A stretch of DNA of 64,000 bases, from assembly GCA_022563855.1 (NCBI GenBank), contig JADFMN010000001.1:372001-436000 (forward strand). The letters run 5' to 3'. The position numbers were made by a program, and so were the translations under genes. Each line of letters begins with the position of its first letter. The first letter of the stretch is position 1. Below, piece by piece: positions 31,179 to 57,040 of the stretch. Under the pieces are notes generated by a model. The model worked only from the letters and a program-made list of their open reading frames with translations, searched no databases and had not been told where the DNA came from. The DNA comes from Armatimonadota bacterium. GTDB taxonomy: Bacteria > Armatimonadota > Fimbriimonadia > Fimbriimonadales > Fimbriimonadaceae.

Positions 31179-33002
31179 TCAGTCTTGCCTCTCACCGGCA
31201 TCGCCGAGGTCGCGCCCTTCGGACGCGCCGCTCTCCATCACATACCCAGGTATGTCGCTGAGCGTGATCGAATAGTCCGTCGCCTTGCCGCTCGATGTCA
31301 GCACGATCAAGAACGTGCTCGGCGCACGAACTTTGAGAAGCCCGAACTGGTTCATGTCGTCGATGCGAGTCAGCGACAGCGGTGCAGGTCGGCCCTTCTC
31401 ATCGCGGATCGAGACGGTGTACGAAAAGCTCGAGGTCTTCCAATGTATGAACAGTGGCTGATCCGGTGTAGCGGTAAATTTCCAGACCTCGACCTTTCCG
31501 GTTGAAAAGTTGCCTTGCGCGGGCGAGTCCATTCCAAACTCCCGAGCGCTGAACACCTGCCGGTTCAAGGTGTAGGCACCGCCACCGCCGTTACCCTTTG
31601 CAGACACGGCCACCAAGTACCGACCGGGCTTCTCGACGATCATGCTCCAGCTCGCGGAGGTCTGGTCAAGCGACATGGACACGGTCCGGACTTCACGAAG
31701 TTCTGGATCGCGAACGATCAGCCGCTCAGAGAACTGTGTCGTGCCCGTCACAAACGTCATAACGTCGCCAGCTTCCGCATTGAACTCCCAATAGTCGGTG
31801 TCCGCAATCCTCAAATGGCTCTCGATCTCCTGATCGAGCGAGAATTCCTTGGCCGCTGGACGGACCGACATCGTATACGTGTTCCCCTTCCCTCCTGCGC
31901 CGTCCGACACCAGCCACAGCACGGCGTTGCGCTGGATGACATACACTCCTCTGCGCGAATCGCCTTCACGCGCTGGCAGCGCGATGAACGCAGGGCCTTT
32001 AACTTCCTCCTCTTCGTCCGGTACATGCGGAAAGAACGGGTTTTTCTCCGGATCTTGCATGTCGTACTTTGAGATATCCGGTTGCTCTGCGAGCACAAAC
32101 CTTGAGCCAAAGGAAAGCTCAGGAGTAGACACTTCCAAGAAGTCGCCTTTCTTGACGGAGAGCGACCAGAGTGAAAGCGAATTGACTGGCGCCTGGGCCG
32201 AGTACCGTCCGTCTTCGCGTTCTAGTTGGTGTACTGGGATGTCCTCGATCGTAGCCCGCACCTTCCCGTTCCGATTGCCGGTCGTTCTGGCTACTACGTA
32301 GTAGTCGCCATCGACCGCTGCCATCACGGTATTTGGCACGACAGATTCGATCGGCTTGATCAGGTTAATGTCTGGCAGTCCGGTCGGCGAGATAAACTGA
32401 TCGATTCTGATCGGTGGGTAAACGTTCAAGTTCGGCCCCCCGTAATGAACCCGCTTGATCTCGCCTGCCTTCATCGAAATCCGTAAGAAGAACCTCTTGC
32501 CAGCCTCGATTTCCATCTCTGTGACTCTTCCTGAGAAGATGTCAAGGCAGTCGTACGTTTTCGTCCGCAAGAAGAACTGACCTCCCGCCGCGTCCTCGAA
32601 ACACCGTGCGCGCAACTTGTAGTCTCCGGCCTCTTCGCACCGCCAGATAAGAAACGGGCGCTGGTCGCCGGGGTAGCGGTCGTCGTTGTAAATGAGTACC
32701 TCTTCTGCTCCGTCGTCGTCGATAAAGACGATCTGCAGCGCGGGATCGAACGCATCGCTGCGCGCGGACGCTATCACGACCTGGCCCTTCTTCAAGGTCA
32801 GTGACCACTCGCTGAACCCGCCGGGGGTCAGGATGTTTCTGATCTCCGGCGGATTGAAGTATGAAGCTACTGCGCTGTCGATCGCACGGACCTTAGCGTT
32901 GTAACGATCCTGTATCGTGCCAGCCTGTCTTCCCTGTCCAAGAACTACTGTGCTAAAGGCACAGGCTGCTATTGCTGTCGCTATGTGAATGATTCTTTTC
33001 AT
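31179..33002 (-). CDS. Large secreted protein, tandem paralogue 1
   Basis: ATG 33002 opens a signal peptide (MKRIIHIATAIAACAFSTVVLGQ); the frame up to 33071 is non-coding. The 607 aa mature protein is built of repeated beta-sandwich units resembling bacterial pre-peptidase C-terminal domains: SEWSLTLKKGQVVIASARSD, NSLSLWSLSVKKGDFLEVS, TDYWEFNAEAGDVMTFVTG and GKVEVWKFTATPDQPLFIHW, each with a W-[SE]-[LF]-x(3)-[KA]-G-D/Q core. At least four units are visible. No catalytic domain is recognised. The next gene upstream is a paralogue about 40% identical along its length. Confidence 0.75.
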   Translation of the reverse strand: MKRIIHIATAIAACAFSTVVLGQGRQAGTIQDRYNAKVRAIDSAVASYFNPPEIRNILTPGGFSEWSLTLKKGQVVIASARSDAFDPALQIVFIDDDGAEEVLIYNDDRYPGDQRPFLIWRCEEAGDYKLRARCFEDAAGGQFFLRTKTYDCLDIFSGRVTEMEIEAGKRFFLRISMKAGEIKRVHYGGPNLNVYPPIRIDQFISPTGLPDINLIKPIESVVPNTVMAAVDGDYYVVARTTGNRNGKVRATIEDIPVHQLEREDGRYSAQAPVNSLSLWSLSVKKGDFLEVSTPELSFGSRFVLAEQPDISKYDMQDPEKNPFFPHVPDEEEEVKGPAFIALPAREGDSRRGVYVIQRNAVLWLVSDGAGGKGNTYTMSVRPAAKEFSLDQEIESHLRIADTDYWEFNAEAGDVMTFVTGTTQFSERLIVRDPELREVRTVSMSLDQTSASWSMIVEKPGRYLVAVSAKGNGGGGAYTLNRQVFSAREFGMDSPAQGNFSTGKVEVWKFTATPDQPLFIHWKTSSFSYTVSIRDEKGRPAPLSLTRIDDMNQFGLLKVRAPSTFLIVLTSSGKATDYSITLSDIPGYVMESGASEGRDLGDAGERQD

Positions 33003-33373
33003 TTCGATCTTCCTGTCCTCTGTGACGGGATGGCCTGCCGCGACGTTACCGTGAGGCCTACTTCGTCCCACAGCCTGATTACAGTGCTCTCAGACGTCAG
33101 AATCAAAACCAACTTTGTGCAGTGCGCAAGGCCTTAGGTAAATCCTCGTGCGCTGTGCAAGAGCTGGATTCGCAGCACAATACGTCTCGAATCAAATCGA
33201 TTCTCGGATCTCGGGCTCATAGCCCCCTTCCCCCTGCATCGGAGGAGGAAGGGGGTTGGGGGAAGGAGGTTTCGGAAGCGCGAGAGCCGGCGCCCATCAC
33301 GCGGCTCGCGTGGTCCTTCGATCCGCTCAGGATGACGCGCTCGCCCTTCCACAACTTGATGCTTCGGTCAATC
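33003..33373. other. Gene-free stretch between the tandem paralogues
   Basis: It contains an inverted repeat block AGCCCCCTTCCCCCTGCATC/GGAGGAGGAAGGGGGTTGGG (33218-33265), similar to the one at 3.6 kb, then a single TCCTTCGATCCGCTCAGGATGA unit (33313-33334) of the repeat A type. No coding sequence is seen. Confidence 0.5.
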
Positions 33374-35197
33374 TCACCTCCCCGGCAGGTCGCGCAGCGT
33401 GATCGAGTAGTTCGACTTCCCGCCGTTCGAGACCAGCACGATCAGATACGTCGTTGGCTCATTCACCTTCAGCACTCCGTACTTGTTGTTGCCGTCTACG
33501 GTCGTCAGCGGCAACTCGATCGCGACGCCTCTTTCGTCGCGAATCGAGATCGTGTACGCCCAGTTGGAGGATCTCCAGTGCACGAGCAGCGGTTCGTCCG
33601 GCGTGGCCATGAACTTCCAGACCTCAGCCCGACCGCTTGAGAAGTCGCCTTGTGCAGGAGACCCCTTTCCAAACTCCCGGGCGCCGAACACGTGACGCTC
33701 GAGCGTGTACGGACCGCTCCCTCCGTCGCCGATCGCCGAGATTGCCACCAAGTATCTGCCCGGCTTTCTGACGATCAAGCTCCAGTCGGTCTCCGTCTCG
33801 TCAACGGTAGCGTACGCGCTCTCGGTCACGCTCAGGTCTGGGTCGTAAACGATGACCCTTTCTGCAAATCCTTTCGCCTTGGTCTTGAACGTCATGACGT
33901 CCCCCACCTCGGCGTCGAACGCCCAGTAGTCTGTGTAACCGATCCGCAGTTGGTCTTTGCGCTCGCTCACAGCTGTGAAGTCTCTGGCGGCCGGCGTGAT
34001 CGACAGCGTATACGTCTCGCTCGTACCTCCGAGACCGTTCGACGCCAGCCAGAGCGTCGCGTCGCGTCTGACGACGAACACCGTTATCCGTGGGTCACGG
34101 GCGCGCCCTGGGAGCTTGACAAATGCCGGCCCCTCATCGTCCTTTTCATCCACCGGTTGCGGGAAGAACGGATTGGTGTCGTTCTCCCCCACATCGTACT
34201 CAGAGATGTCCGGGTGCTCGGCGAGGGCGAACCGAGAACTCAGCGAGAGCCCCGGTGTGGAAACCTGGAGGATATCGCCCTCTTTGACGTCGAGCGTCCA
34301 GAGCGAAAGCGTGTTTCTAGATGCCGACACCGTGTATCTGCCCTCCTTTCTCGATAGCGCTACTTCAACGATATCTTGAATGCGGGCTCGCAGTTTCCAG
34401 TCGCTCGGGCCGCTGGGTCTGACGATAACGTAATAGTCCCCATCGACAGCGGCCATTACAGCGTCGCTGATCACGTTCCTCATCGGCCTAGTGAGCTCGA
34501 TGTCCGGCAACCCCGTCGGAGAGATCACGCCCTCGATTCTCCCCCAGACGTACTCTTTGCGGTTCGGAAGTTCAATGATGACCTTCTTGATCTGTCCTGC
34601 CTTCATTGGGATGCGAATCAGGATCTTCTCCTGACCGTCAAGTTGCATATCTACGGGTTTCTCCGACAGTAGGTCCATTGAGTCGTAGATCCTCATTCGC
34701 AAGAAGAACTGCCCGCCGGACTTGTCGCGGAAGCACCGTGCCCGGAGTCTGTACTCGCCGTCCCTTTCGCACCGCCAGATCAGAAGCGGTCGTTGGTCGC
34801 CGGGGTAACGGTCATCGTTCTCTGCGAGAACGATCCCCTCGGCCTCCTCGTCCTCATCCTCCTCTAAGAAAATGACCTGCAGCGCGGGGTCGAAGGCGTC
34901 GCTCCGCGCGTCTGCGATCAGGACCTGCCCAGCCTCTAGCTTCAGCGTCCACTGGCTAATCTCGCCTGTCGTCAAGATGTTCTTGATCTCGTTCGTCTCT
35001 AGGTACGCGTCCACTTCGCTATCTATGAGGAGTACAGCCTCTTCGTAGGTGTCGTTATCGGATCCGCCGCCCTGTCCAAAGCCGCCGCCGAAGCCGCCCC
35101 CACCTCCCCCGCCGAAGCTGCCGCCCCCCTGTCCGAGAACAGCTGTGCTCAAGGCACAGACTGCGATAACCGTCAAAAAGTAAAAGGTTCGTCCCAT
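33374..35197 (-). CDS. Large secreted protein, tandem paralogue 2, with Gly-rich N-terminal linker
   Basis: A signal peptide (FYFLTVIAVCALSTAVLGQ) is followed by a Gly/Ser/Phe-rich linker of about 25 residues (GGGSFGGGGGGGFGGGFGQG) absent from the neighbour. The rest aligns with the protein at 31179-33002: NDDRYPGDQRPLLIWRCERDGEY, QFFLRMRIYD, NTLSLWTLDVKEGDIL, YTDYWAFDAEVGDVMTFKT and GRAEVWKFMATPDEPLLVHW. Repeated beta-sandwich units suggest a surface or periplasmic scaffold. A set of 10-bp phased repeats lies 75-135 bases upstream. Confidence 0.75.
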   Translation of the reverse strand: MGRTFYFLTVIAVCALSTAVLGQGGGSFGGGGGGGFGGGFGQGGGSDNDTYEEAVLLIDSEVDAYLETNEIKNILTTGEISQWTLKLEAGQVLIADARSDAFDPALQVIFLEEDEDEEAEGIVLAENDDRYPGDQRPLLIWRCERDGEYRLRARCFRDKSGGQFFLRMRIYDSMDLLSEKPVDMQLDGQEKILIRIPMKAGQIKKVIIELPNRKEYVWGRIEGVISPTGLPDIELTRPMRNVISDAVMAAVDGDYYVIVRPSGPSDWKLRARIQDIVEVALSRKEGRYTVSASRNTLSLWTLDVKEGDILQVSTPGLSLSSRFALAEHPDISEYDVGENDTNPFFPQPVDEKDDEGPAFVKLPGRARDPRITVFVVRRDATLWLASNGLGGTSETYTLSITPAARDFTAVSERKDQLRIGYTDYWAFDAEVGDVMTFKTKAKGFAERVIVYDPDLSVTESAYATVDETETDWSLIVRKPGRYLVAISAIGDGGSGPYTLERHVFGAREFGKGSPAQGDFSSGRAEVWKFMATPDEPLLVHWRSSNWAYTISIRDERGVAIELPLTTVDGNNKYGVLKVNEPTTYLIVLVSNGGKSNYSITLRDLPGR

Positions 35198-40900: not shown

Positions 40901-41302
40901 ATGACCCTCAGGGCCGTGCTGCACGCACACATCCCCACTCTTACTATGCGTAGCACGTTGCGTGACGCGATCGACAAGATGACTTTGTACCAGTTCGCTA
41001 CGCTCGTGATCGTGGATGAGAATCATGCCCCGGTCGCCGTCATCACCGAGGGCGACGTCGCTCGGGCCGTGCACCAACGCGGAAACCTGACGAGCCTGGC
41101 CTCTGACACGGCGCTTCACTTCGGCAGCCAGTCCCCTCAGATCGTCGGACCGGACATGGAGATCAGCGACGCTCTGCACCTCATGCTGAACAGTGGGCTG
41201 ACGGTTCTGCCAGTCGTGGAGAACGGCGGGCTGATCGGCGTTGCCTTGCGGACGGATCTGATGCATGCGATACTGCTCGACGCTCCCGTGAAGCAAATCT
41301 AA
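40901..41302 (+). CDS. CBS-pair domain protein
   Basis: The 133 aa protein is a stand-alone CBS pair: LRDAIDKMTLYQFATLVIVDENHAPVAVITEGDVARA, then EISDALHLMLNSGLTVLPVVENGGLIGVALRTDLMH. CBS pairs bind adenosine nucleotides and act as energy sensors. It precedes the peroxiredoxin gene by 52 bases. Confidence 0.88.
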   Translation: MTLRAVLHAHIPTLTMRSTLRDAIDKMTLYQFATLVIVDENHAPVAVITEGDVARAVHQRGNLTSLASDTALHFGSQSPQIVGPDMEISDALHLMLNSGLTVLPVVENGGLIGVALRTDLMHAILLDAPVKQI

Positions 41303-41354: not shown

Positions 41355-41810
41355 ATGATCGGCAAGCCGTTCCCAGAATTCAGGTTAGAGGACCAAAACG
41401 GAAAAACCTGGACGCGCCAGGACTTGCTTGGGAAACAGACCGTCCTGTTTTGCTATCCGAAGGACGGTACGCCTGGGTGAACCGTCGAGGCTCGCGAGTT
41501 TCGCGACGCACACTCCCGGTTCGGCGAAGTCCAGCTCGTCGGCCTTAGCCCGGACACCGTCAAGTCACATCAGAAATTCAGCGCCAAGAACGACCTGAAG
41601 ATGCCGCTGCTCGCAGATGAACAGAAGGGCTTGCTGACGGCGCTCGGAGTATGGGTAGAAAAGTCGCTGTACGGCCGAAAGTACATGGGCGTCGATCGCA
41701 GCACGTTCGTCGTAGACTCCGATGGAGTCGTCGTTCACGCGTGGTCGAAAGTGAAGCCGAAAGACCATGCGGCTCAGGTTCTAGCGTGGCTGGAAGCGAA
41801 CAGCCGGTAA
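41355..41810 (+). CDS. Bcp/PrxQ-type peroxiredoxin with TGA (selenocysteine?) at the catalytic position
   Basis: Read with TGA 41478-41480 as an amino acid, the frame gives a complete 151 aa peroxiredoxin: GKPFPEFRLEDQNGKTW, VLFCYPKDGTPG, X42, TVEAREFRD, LVGLSPDTVKSHQKF, LPLLAD-like MPLLADEQK and RSTFVVDSDG. In Bcp/PrxQ proteins X42 is the peroxidatic Cys of TPGCT. The sequence after TGA remains perfectly conserved in family pattern, and a SECIS-like hairpin lies 12 bases downstream, so selenocysteine insertion is likely. The resolving Cys of E. coli Bcp is Arg here (TVEAR), so it would act as a one-selenol enzyme. A point nonsense mutation is the alternative. Confidence 0.8.
41478..41506 (+). 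promoter_or_regulatory. Candidate bacterial SECIS element
   Basis: After UGA (41478-41480), TCGCGA (41492-41497) pairs with TCGCGA (41501-41506) around the loop GTT. The loop starts 18 bases after UGA and its first base is G. Bacterial SECIS elements typically place a small apical loop 16-37 bases after UGA with a G in the first two loop bases, so both criteria are met. Confidence 0.65.
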
Positions 41811-41823
41811 AATCGTACTCGGA

Positions 41824-42609
41824 ATGGCTGGAAAGCGCACTGCGCCCTCGATCCTAGCGATGAAGGCCAAAGGCGAGCTGATCGTCTCGGTCACGGCGTA
41901 CGACGTGACGAGCGGTGCGATCGCGGATGCGTCCGGAGTCGACCTGATTCTGGTTGGCGACTCGCTCGGAAACGTCGTGCTAGGCTACGACTCGACTGTC
42001 GGCGTCACGATGGCCGACATGGTCCATCACGTCCGTGCGGCCAGAGCGGGCGTTAAGGACGCCCTCTTCATAGCCGACCTACCGTTCGGAAGCTATCAAG
42101 AGTCTCCGCCGCAGGCAGTACGTTCCGCCGTCGAACTCATGAGAGCTGGCGCTGAGGGCGTGAAGCTTGAAGGCGCGTACGTCGAGCAGGTCGCGGCGAT
42201 CACCAAAGCTGGCATCCCCGTGATGGGGCACGTCGGCCTCACGCCGCAATCGGTGCACGCTTTTGGCGGACACAAGGTGCAGGGCAAGGGCGAGGACGGC
42301 GAGAGAATCCGAGGCGAGGCGTGCGCTATTCAGGATGCCGGTGCGTTCTCCATCGTGCTCGAACTCATGCCAGCAAAGCTCGCCGGCAGAATCACGGCGG
42401 ACCTCGACATCCCGACTATCGGGATTGGCGCCGGACCGCACTGCGACGGCCAGATCCAAGTTTTTCACGACATCATGGGCCTGAGCGAGCGCACTTTCAA
42501 ACACGCAAAGGATTTCGCGCAAGCACGCAAGGCGATGGCCGAGGGGATGACTCAGTACTCCGAAGAAGTGCGAACCGGAGTCTTCCCTTCGCAGGAAAAC
42601 AGCTTTTGA
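41824..42609 (+). CDS. panB: 3-Methyl-2-oxobutanoate hydroxymethyltransferase
   Basis: PanB makes ketopantoate from 2-oxoisovalerate and methylene-THF, the first step to pantothenate and CoA. Family blocks are VTAYDVTSGAIADASGVDLILVGDSLGNVVLGYDST-type N-terminal strand (metal-binding Asp in DSLG), ADLPFGSYQ, KLEGAYV, GHVGLTPQSVHAFGG and IGIGAGPHCDGQIQV. Length 261 aa is normal. The stop overlaps the TTG start of panC. Confidence 0.95.
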   Translation: MAGKRTAPSILAMKAKGELIVSVTAYDVTSGAIADASGVDLILVGDSLGNVVLGYDSTVGVTMADMVHHVRAARAGVKDALFIADLPFGSYQESPPQAVRSAVELMRAGAEGVKLEGAYVEQVAAITKAGIPVMGHVGLTPQSVHAFGGHKVQGKGEDGERIRGEACAIQDAGAFSIVLELMPAKLAGRITADLDIPTIGIGAGPHCDGQIQVFHDIMGLSERTFKHAKDFAQARKAMAEGMTQYSEEVRTGVFPSQENSF

Positions 42610-54595: not shown

Positions 54596-57040
54596 ATGGC
54601 AACACGTCACCCCGTTCCCGGACGAGCGAAGACTGAGGCGCCCAAGGAGGGCAACGTTCGCGTCGTTCGAACGACCGACAGTCCTAACTGCACTGGCGCT
54701 TGCGGATGGCTTGCGACGGTGGTCGACGACGTGATCGTCGACCTCAAGCCAGCGGCCGACTATCCGGATGAGGAGTACAACCCGCGCGGCTGCCTGCGCG
54801 GGATGTCGATGACGCATCTCATCTACGGGCCGGACAGGATCAAGACGCCTTTGATCAGAACAGGCGAGAGGGGAGAGGGCAAGTTCCGGGAGGCCACATG
54901 GGACGAAGCGCTCGATTTGATCGCGGACAAGATGAAGAAGGCGATGAAAGACCACGGGCCGGAGAGCGTCATGCTCTTCAACCAGGTCGTGGGGACCGGC
55001 TACGTGCAAAAAGGCGCGCAAGTCCGAATGGCTTCGCTGCTCGGCATGTCGTTCGGCACCGCTTACGATTTCAACGGCGACATTTCGATGGGGTACACGC
55101 AGACGCTCGGTATCGACAGCATTGAGTGCGAGTCGAAGAGCTGGGGTTACGCAAAGACCGCGATCCTGTGGTCGAGCAACATCTTCCAAACGCGCATACC
55201 CGACGCCCAGTTCTTGACCCGCGTCGCAAAGCAGCGCAACAACTGCAAGATCATCTCGATCGATCCACGCGCCAGTCAGACGGCGAAGGGCGCAGACCAG
55301 TGGCTACCGATTACGCCCGGCACAGACGGCCTCCTGGCGCTCTCAATGTGCCAAGTCGTGATGGAGAGGGAGCTGATCGACTGGTCATTTTTGCGCACGT
55401 ACACCGACATGGCGACGCTCGTCAGGTCGGACAACGGGATGCGCGTAACAGCCAAGGACGTCGGCATGGGCGAAGAGAGCGAGTTCGTCGTCTGGGACGA
55501 CACCCGCAACGGTCTGTTCACCCTGCCGATGGACACGCTCAGGCTTCCCGAGGGGATCGAACCGTCGTTCCGCGGAGTTCGCAAGCTCCAGATCGACGGC
55601 CAGGAAGTCGAGGTCACCCCAGTGTTCCAGCTAGTCGAAGACGTTGTGATGCGAGACGAGTACCGTCCGGAGAACGTCGCCAAGATCACGGACATCCCGG
55701 CAGAAACGATCAGGCAGGTCGCGACCGACTACGCGACCAACAGGCCGTCCACGATCATCGTCGGAATGGGCGTGAACCACAGGCTGCACGGCGATCTGAC
55801 GATCCGGTCGATCCTGCTGCTGAGCGCGCTCGTCGGCGCGCACGGCAAGCCGGGCGAATCCGTTTCGATCTACTCCGGCCAGCACCACTTCCGGCTCGAC
55901 GTCTCGCCGTGGTGGTTCCCCGACGGGAAGCGCCCGAACGCGGTTCCTGTGCACTACTTCATCTTGGGCCGTCCGACCAACTCGATGAACAAGAAGATCA
56001 AGTTCCCCAAGGACGGCTTCAAGGGATTCATTTGCTCGCACGCCAACCCGATGGTCACGGAGTTCAGCAACTTGATGAAAGCGGCGATGGACAAGCTCGA
56101 CATCTTCGTCACCATCGACTTTCAAATGACGCCGACCTGCGAGTACTCGGACGTCGTGCTTCCTGCGCCGACGTTTTGGGAGAAGTACGAACTCGTCGCC
56201 ACTGGCTGCCATCCGTTCTTGCAGATCCAGCAAGAGGTCGTGCCGCCGCAGTACGACAGCAAGACGGAGTACTGGATCGTCAAGGAGATGGTGCGACGGA
56301 TCGATCCCGACTTGCTCAAATACTTTGAAGTTGACGAGTTCGGTGCGATGGAGATGATGCTCGACGCCCCGGACTGTCCGGAAGTGGCGGGCATCACGAT
56401 CGAGCAGCTCAAGGCAGGCCCGGTTCGGCTGAAGGTACACGACCCTGAGTGCGGACTTGACGAACAGATTCAAGACTTCAAGCTGTTCCCGCCACGCGCC
56501 TATCCGTTCCCCGAGGGCGCGCAGCGGGAGTTCCTCAAGACCGGCCGCATGGAGTTCTACAAGGAAGAAGAGACGTACCAGAAGCTCGGTGAGACGCTCC
56601 CCGTTTTCAAGCCAGCGTTCTCGCACATGACGGACGACGAGCAGGCGCTTCCGTTCTGCATCGTCACCCCGCACTCCAAGTGGCGCGTGCACTCGACTCA
56701 CTGCAACAACAACGTGCTGAGGAATCTGAACCGCAAGCCGGTCGTCGAGATCCATCCAGCCGATGCACTGACGAGAGGAATCGAGGACGACGACGAGGTC
56801 GAGGTGTTCAACGACAACGGTTCCTACAAGTTGTGGGCGCTGCTGACAGAATCGATCAAGCCCGGCGTCCTGTGCGTCGATCACGGCTGGTGGGATCGGT
56901 TCCTGATTGATGGGAAGTACCACTCCGTGCACTCGGAGCAGAAGATCAAGCCGACCCATGAGACGTACTATCTGCCAGCCGTCTACGCGCCGGGTCAACA
57001 CTGGAAAGATACGAGAGTGAACATCAGGAGATCGAAGTAG
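54596..57040 (+). CDS. Nitrate-reductase-like molybdopterin oxidoreductase (DMSO reductase family, type II)
   Basis: An 814 aa bis-MGD enzyme. The N-terminal iron-sulfur motif is D-SPN-C-TGA-C (Asp28, Cys32, Cys36) plus Cys66 in NPRGCLRG; NarG has His at the Asp28 position. AYDFNGDIS places Asp162 where type II enzymes (NarG, NxrA, PcrA, DdhA) use an Asp Mo ligand. No twin-arginine signal is present, implying a cytoplasmic-facing subunit. At 814 aa it is much shorter than NarG (~1,230). Nitrate is the likely substrate because narK lies next door, but other oxyanions cannot be excluded. No NarJ chaperone is seen. Confidence 0.87.
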   Translation: MATRHPVPGRAKTEAPKEGNVRVVRTTDSPNCTGACGWLATVVDDVIVDLKPAADYPDEEYNPRGCLRGMSMTHLIYGPDRIKTPLIRTGERGEGKFREATWDEALDLIADKMKKAMKDHGPESVMLFNQVVGTGYVQKGAQVRMASLLGMSFGTAYDFNGDISMGYTQTLGIDSIECESKSWGYAKTAILWSSNIFQTRIPDAQFLTRVAKQRNNCKIISIDPRASQTAKGADQWLPITPGTDGLLALSMCQVVMERELIDWSFLRTYTDMATLVRSDNGMRVTAKDVGMGEESEFVVWDDTRNGLFTLPMDTLRLPEGIEPSFRGVRKLQIDGQEVEVTPVFQLVEDVVMRDEYRPENVAKITDIPAETIRQVATDYATNRPSTIIVGMGVNHRLHGDLTIRSILLLSALVGAHGKPGESVSIYSGQHHFRLDVSPWWFPDGKRPNAVPVHYFILGRPTNSMNKKIKFPKDGFKGFICSHANPMVTEFSNLMKAAMDKLDIFVTIDFQMTPTCEYSDVVLPAPTFWEKYELVATGCHPFLQIQQEVVPPQYDSKTEYWIVKEMVRRIDPDLLKYFEVDEFGAMEMMLDAPDCPEVAGITIEQLKAGPVRLKVHDPECGLDEQIQDFKLFPPRAYPFPEGAQREFLKTGRMEFYKEEETYQKLGETLPVFKPAFSHMTDDEQALPFCIVTPHSKWRVHSTHCNNNVLRNLNRKPVVEIHPADALTRGIEDDDEVEVFNDNGSYKLWALLTESIKPGVLCVDHGWWDRFLIDGKYHSVHSEQKIKPTHETYYLPAVYAPGQHWKDTRVNIRRSK

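Follow-up and report, generated by a model that had tools for sequence, protein, structure and literature searches.

A probable selenocysteine-containing PrxQ/Bcp peroxiredoxin in a member of the Armatimonadota

Peroxiredoxins of the COG1225/Bcp type carrying selenocysteine (Sec) in a TxxU motif form an established selenoprotein family (PMC9312934; PMC1088965), and ‘Peroxiredoxin (Prx)’ selenoproteins have been counted at 91 members in 78 organisms (PMC5029168). For this Sec-Prx family, an earlier study traced five Cys-to-Sec changes across bacteria (PMC1794560). The main text of the selenoprotein reviews, the comparative survey and the prediction-method paper that we consulted makes no mention of the phylum Armatimonadota, nor did we find a link between the phylum and selenoproteins in the open-access literature; a report from outside this scope may exist. 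Here, we analyzed a 64,000 nt stretch of a Fimbriimonadaceae genome (hereafter ‘the window’; its genome is G000), in which an earlier note, drawn from the sequence alone, had claimed a Bcp/PrxQ-like reading frame with a single TGA at the codon of the catalytic Cys.

Translation bore out this frame. It runs from an ATG at 41355 to a TAA at 41808–41810, with codon 42 as its sole TGA, placed in the context YPKDGTPG-U-TVEAR. The motif PxxxTxxU is present as PKDGTPGU, and U42 aligns with the invariant C42 of relatives. When the TGA was read as Cys, a profile search matched the protein to AhpC-TSA (PF00578; 118.5 bits, E = 2e-34). The top NCBIfam models were PrxQ and PRK09437 (Bcp), each under its strict cut-off; the score of 126.6 bits for PRK09437 (thioredoxin-dependent thiol peroxidase), against a curated cut-off of 140, marks the protein as related and just under. 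The closest solved structures—by sequence and by fold—were Bcp/PrxQ enzymes, the structure prediction yielded a confident PrxQ fold (pLDDT 97), and the closest named protein match came from a Fimbriimonadaceae bacterium of the Armatimonadota. We consider it highly probable (roughly 0.95) that the gene encodes a Sec-containing PrxQ/Bcp enzyme whose UGA42 would be decoded by SelB and tRNA-Sec, and which would have arisen from an in-place exchange of Cys for Sec. Along with this, we infer Sec insertion at codon 42 and peroxidase activity of the protein. The features are collected in Table 1.

Table 1 Features of the peroxiredoxin locus and TGA-containing thioredoxin-fold genes elsewhere in genome G000.
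Feature	Position	Strand	Basis or remark
CBS-domain protein	40901..41302	+	Upstream neighbor; position beside PrxQ conserved family-wide, the Sec forms of G001 and G013 included
Probable Sec-containing PrxQ/Bcp peroxiredoxin gene	41355..41810	+	151 residues with U42; translation, profile and structure matches
In-frame TGA (probable Sec codon) replacing the peroxidatic Cys codon	41478..41480	+	TGC/TGT in Cys relatives; TGA in G001, G013 and G054
Predicted SECIS-like stem-loop	41481..41520	+	-15.2 kcal/mol; fits the model, not discriminating
Codon 47 (CGC, Arg) replacing the usual resolving Cys at CP+5	41493..41495	+	Translation, alignment
PanB (ketopantoate hydroxymethyltransferase)	41824..42609	+	Downstream neighbor; position beside PrxQ conserved among Cys relatives
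Candidate thioredoxin-fold TGA genes (loci L163-L168, L171, L176, L179)	C2:207325 and neighbor (L163), C2:345778, C4:55835, C4:136847, C4:283102, C9:22319, C9:98869, C10:107339		TGA at the first redox Cys

A TGA within an otherwise open frame could also denote a nonsense pseudogene, inactivated by a point mutation of TGC or TGT; TGA lies one mutation from both Cys codons, and the gene has lost its resolving Cys as well. Conservation along the gene argues against such decay. Identity before and after the TGA was 60% and 59% to L002, and 55% and 57% to L083, the nearest Cys relatives (overall about 55–60%), with the 109 codons that follow the TGA as well conserved as the upstream part. Equal identity to the Cys relatives on both sides speaks against both chance and decay as the source of the match across the TGA, and the family motifs that the earlier note had seen flanking the codon were intact. 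That note had further proposed an alignment of homologues, and this returned TGA at the orthologous codon in a genome of the same genus (G001, where the gene sits at a contig end), one of the same family (G013) and one of the same order (G054), while the other PrxQ relatives carry TGC or TGT at the peroxidatic codon. The three TGA orthologues lie at 50–55% protein identity to the window protein, and none of them contains the scattered stops that the earlier note had named as a sign of a pseudogene. The recurrent TGA brings the pseudogene close to refutation, the whole Sec machinery encoded in the genome (see below) also speaks against it, and we give it very little credence.

A motif search across 291 genomes of the phylum recovered the TGA version in four (one of which, G014, represents a different peroxiredoxin family), the G001 gene escaping the strict search pattern. 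The same motif with TAA or TAG occurred in 0 of the 291, which is a weak to moderate control, because either codon is two mutations away from the Cys codons; conservation of the gene downstream of the TGA is the stronger argument against nonsense. No Cys orthologue of PrxQ was found in G000. As a separate observation, two relatives have a Sec codon in this other peroxiredoxin family (PKDFTPG-U-TAQVR), at loci L116 (G014:C11) and L117 (G032:C1:398001).

The earlier note had supposed that the organism decodes UGA as Sec and had suggested a search for the machinery. All four components were present in the genome: profile searches identified selA (433 bits), selB (345 bits) and selD (359 bits), and a tRNA-Sec with anticodon TCA scored 74 bits. 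These genes sit on contigs other than that of PrxQ, the genome being a draft of 22 contigs (96% complete, 3.3% contamination). Together with the TGA orthologues, they support the supposed decoding. Over the 61 genomes compared, selB exceeded its curated cut-off in 32 and selD in 34; the Sec trait is therefore common in the group, and for this order of Armatimonadota we found no prior report in the literature searched. Its distribution is patchy, as selB, selD and tRNA-Sec were seen in about half of the genomes from the family and order (G001–G060) and not found in the rest. The draft genome G054 (73% complete) yielded no clear tRNA-Sec.

Sequence by itself does not name the inserted residue, and UGA might instead specify a different amino acid, such as Trp or Cys, through a reassigned or suppressor tRNA. 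The presence of tRNA-Sec, selA, selB and selD speaks against this, as does the fact that several redox proteins of the genome have TGA where a catalytic Cys would be; moreover, a scan of the whole window for in-frame TGA in redox-like motifs left PrxQ as the only one resembling a real gene, with no other convincing case. We thus regard decoding as another residue as about as improbable as a pseudogene. Least credible of all is a wrong base at codon 42 from sequencing or assembly, conceivable because the genome is a draft and one assembly of the species was analyzed: distinct genomes from its genus, its family and its order all have TGA there, and a wrong codon 42 would leave the missing Cys at CP+5 unexplained. 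Elsewhere in the window, two adjacent minus-strand ORFs of 630 and 607 aa (31179–35197) look alike along their length and are apparently duplicate copies of one secreted-protein gene.

Sec decoding by this organism would extend beyond PrxQ. About nine further thioredoxin-fold genes in G000 have a TGA at the first redox Cys, within the motifs YWUGPC (twice), APTUGAC, HWUGFC, DWUGFC, SWUGWC, FATUPPC, SWUGC and VWUSFC. SelD is itself a selenoprotein in many Sec-decoding bacteria, and selD of G000 (L146; G000:C4:337500-341500) likewise contains a TGA, within the motif KCAGU, making it a candidate selenoprotein. Counting PrxQ and SelD, the genome thus has about eleven candidates, the thioredoxin-fold ones by motif only; as the searches covered the Sec machinery and three protein families, the true number may be higher. 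On this basis, G000 is a candidate for a selenoprotein-rich genome within the Armatimonadota. Sec-containing formate dehydrogenase has been reported in 89% of Sec-decoding bacteria (PMC1794560). The molybdopterin oxidoreductases found in G000 have no in-frame TGA and hence give no sign of such an enzyme; in the window, a molybdopterin oxidoreductase (PF00384) at 54836–56293 is likewise free of in-frame TGA. Gene callers would take UGA42 for a stop, fragmenting the peroxiredoxin as well as the other candidate selenoproteins and leaving the antioxidant system partly hidden.

The earlier note had also placed an Arg where PrxQ enzymes usually have the resolving Cys, and Arg47 was indeed seen at CP+5. 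The protein departs from the atypical 2-Cys PrxQ pattern (CP-X4-CR), with zero Cys after residue 42. Across the four Sec forms, the CP+5 residues are Arg, Lys, Thr and Ser—Cys in none—while a Cys is retained there (CTxEAC) by those Cys orthologues examined within the order. Outside the order, Cys forms devoid of the CP+5 Cys are common, and direct reduction by thioredoxin or GSH/glutaredoxin is documented for 1-Cys Bcp in work cited in PMC8945050. In light of these Cys forms and this precedent, the different route of reduction that the earlier note had deduced appears plausible. Cys33 was considered as a substitute resolving residue and is unlikely to serve as one, given that it falls in a predicted strand (residues 29–33), is missing from G013 and also occurs in L083, a Cys relative.

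A catalytic sequence can be sketched as follows. SelB and tRNA-Sec would decode UGA42 as Sec, presumably with guidance from the stem-loop that closely follows the codon. With the conserved T39 and R115 activating it, the U42 selenolate would attack the peroxide and be converted to a selenenic acid. Given the loss of the CP+5 Cys and the lack of any Cys downstream of U42, the enzyme could not form the intramolecular bridge typical of 2-Cys PrxQ; most likely, the selenenic acid would be reduced directly by an external thiol, as in 1-Cys Bcp, with thioredoxin or another thiol probably acting on the Sec enzyme. Two adjacent thioredoxin genes of G000 free of TGA (C3:109244-109948) could provide this reductant.

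As to the stem-loop itself, bacterial SECIS elements have been modeled as having a loop of 3–9 nt with a G in its first two positions, 16–37 nt of spacing and a free energy of at most -7.5 kcal/mol (PMC13188914). The structure in the window, whose palindromic apical hairpin TCGCGA-GTT-TCGCGA (41492–41506) exposes a GUU loop at 41498–41500, falls within these constraints, as the earlier note had held; G is the first loop base, and the spacing from UGA to loop is 17 nt rather than the 18 that the note had given. The same constraints were satisfied by 90% of 400 synonymous random versions and by 78% of 36 Cys relatives, and 22% of the synonymous versions were at least as stable. These controls rule the hairpin out as proof of Sec: since random versions and Cys relatives pass too, the fit is no better than this sequence composition would predict, and the hairpin is compatible with Sec insertion and adds almost no weight. 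Hairpin position varies among the four related Sec sequences, the G001 gene having a weak model hairpin only, at the far end of the permitted distance.

With respect to the origin of the Sec form, the order CBS–PrxQ–PanB is found in G000 and in many Cys relatives (most family genomes). In G001 and G013, the CBS gene adjoins the Sec-type PrxQ, and the contigs stop before panB. The conservation of this locus suggests the Sec gene to be an ordinary family copy changed in place, and we infer the direction of exchange to have been from Cys to Sec. In a weakly resolved tree of 53 sequences (149 columns), the window protein grouped with that of G001 and two Cys relatives, and G013 and G054 were placed apart from this group. 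The Sec label required two changes on the best tree; a single Sec clade was not rejected (AU p 0.21). We tentatively entertain, at somewhat less than even odds, that PrxQ of Fimbriimonadales went from 2-Cys to Sec more than once, each time losing the resolving Cys, in a lineage with a previously unreported set of thioredoxin-fold selenoproteins. The occurrence of Cys and Sec forms at one conserved locus in close relatives offers a natural experiment on the exchange of Cys for Sec, and its comparison bears also on the fate of the resolving Cys upon that exchange.

How does the enzyme relate to described systems? The peroxiredoxin domain is shared with PrxU of Eubacterium acidaminophilum, and the same chemistry is expected. 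NF040737 (peroxi_PrxU), which by its name we take to represent that protein, scored 23.4 bits against a cut-off of 270 (model length, 233 positions), excluding membership in the NCBI PrxU family. Of the kinship that the earlier note had drawn with Sec peroxiredoxins such as PrxU, the relation to the Bcp/PrxQ type stands, then, and that to the PrxU family does not. The Cys-type PrxQ/Bcp proteins of Fimbriimonadaceae (such as L002 and L083) are close in sequence, at 58–60% identity, and PrxQ lies beside the CBS gene and panB in most family genomes; they differ from the window gene in that their peroxidatic codon is TGC or TGT and that they have a resolving Cys at CP+5. The 1-Cys Bcp of Burkholderia cenocepacia, as cited in PMC8945050, is likewise devoid of a resolving Cys and has a peroxidatic Cys, not Sec. 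The known Sec-Prx proteins of the COG1225/Bcp type (TxxU; PMC9312934, PMC13188914, PMC1088965, PMC1794560) belong to the same AhpC-TSA Bcp class and share the peroxidatic Sec within TPGU. Against these, the window gene stands out by its origin in Armatimonadota; it also lacks the resolving Cys at CP+5, a trait that other members may share. It adds a member of the known Sec-Prx family in a little-studied phylum.
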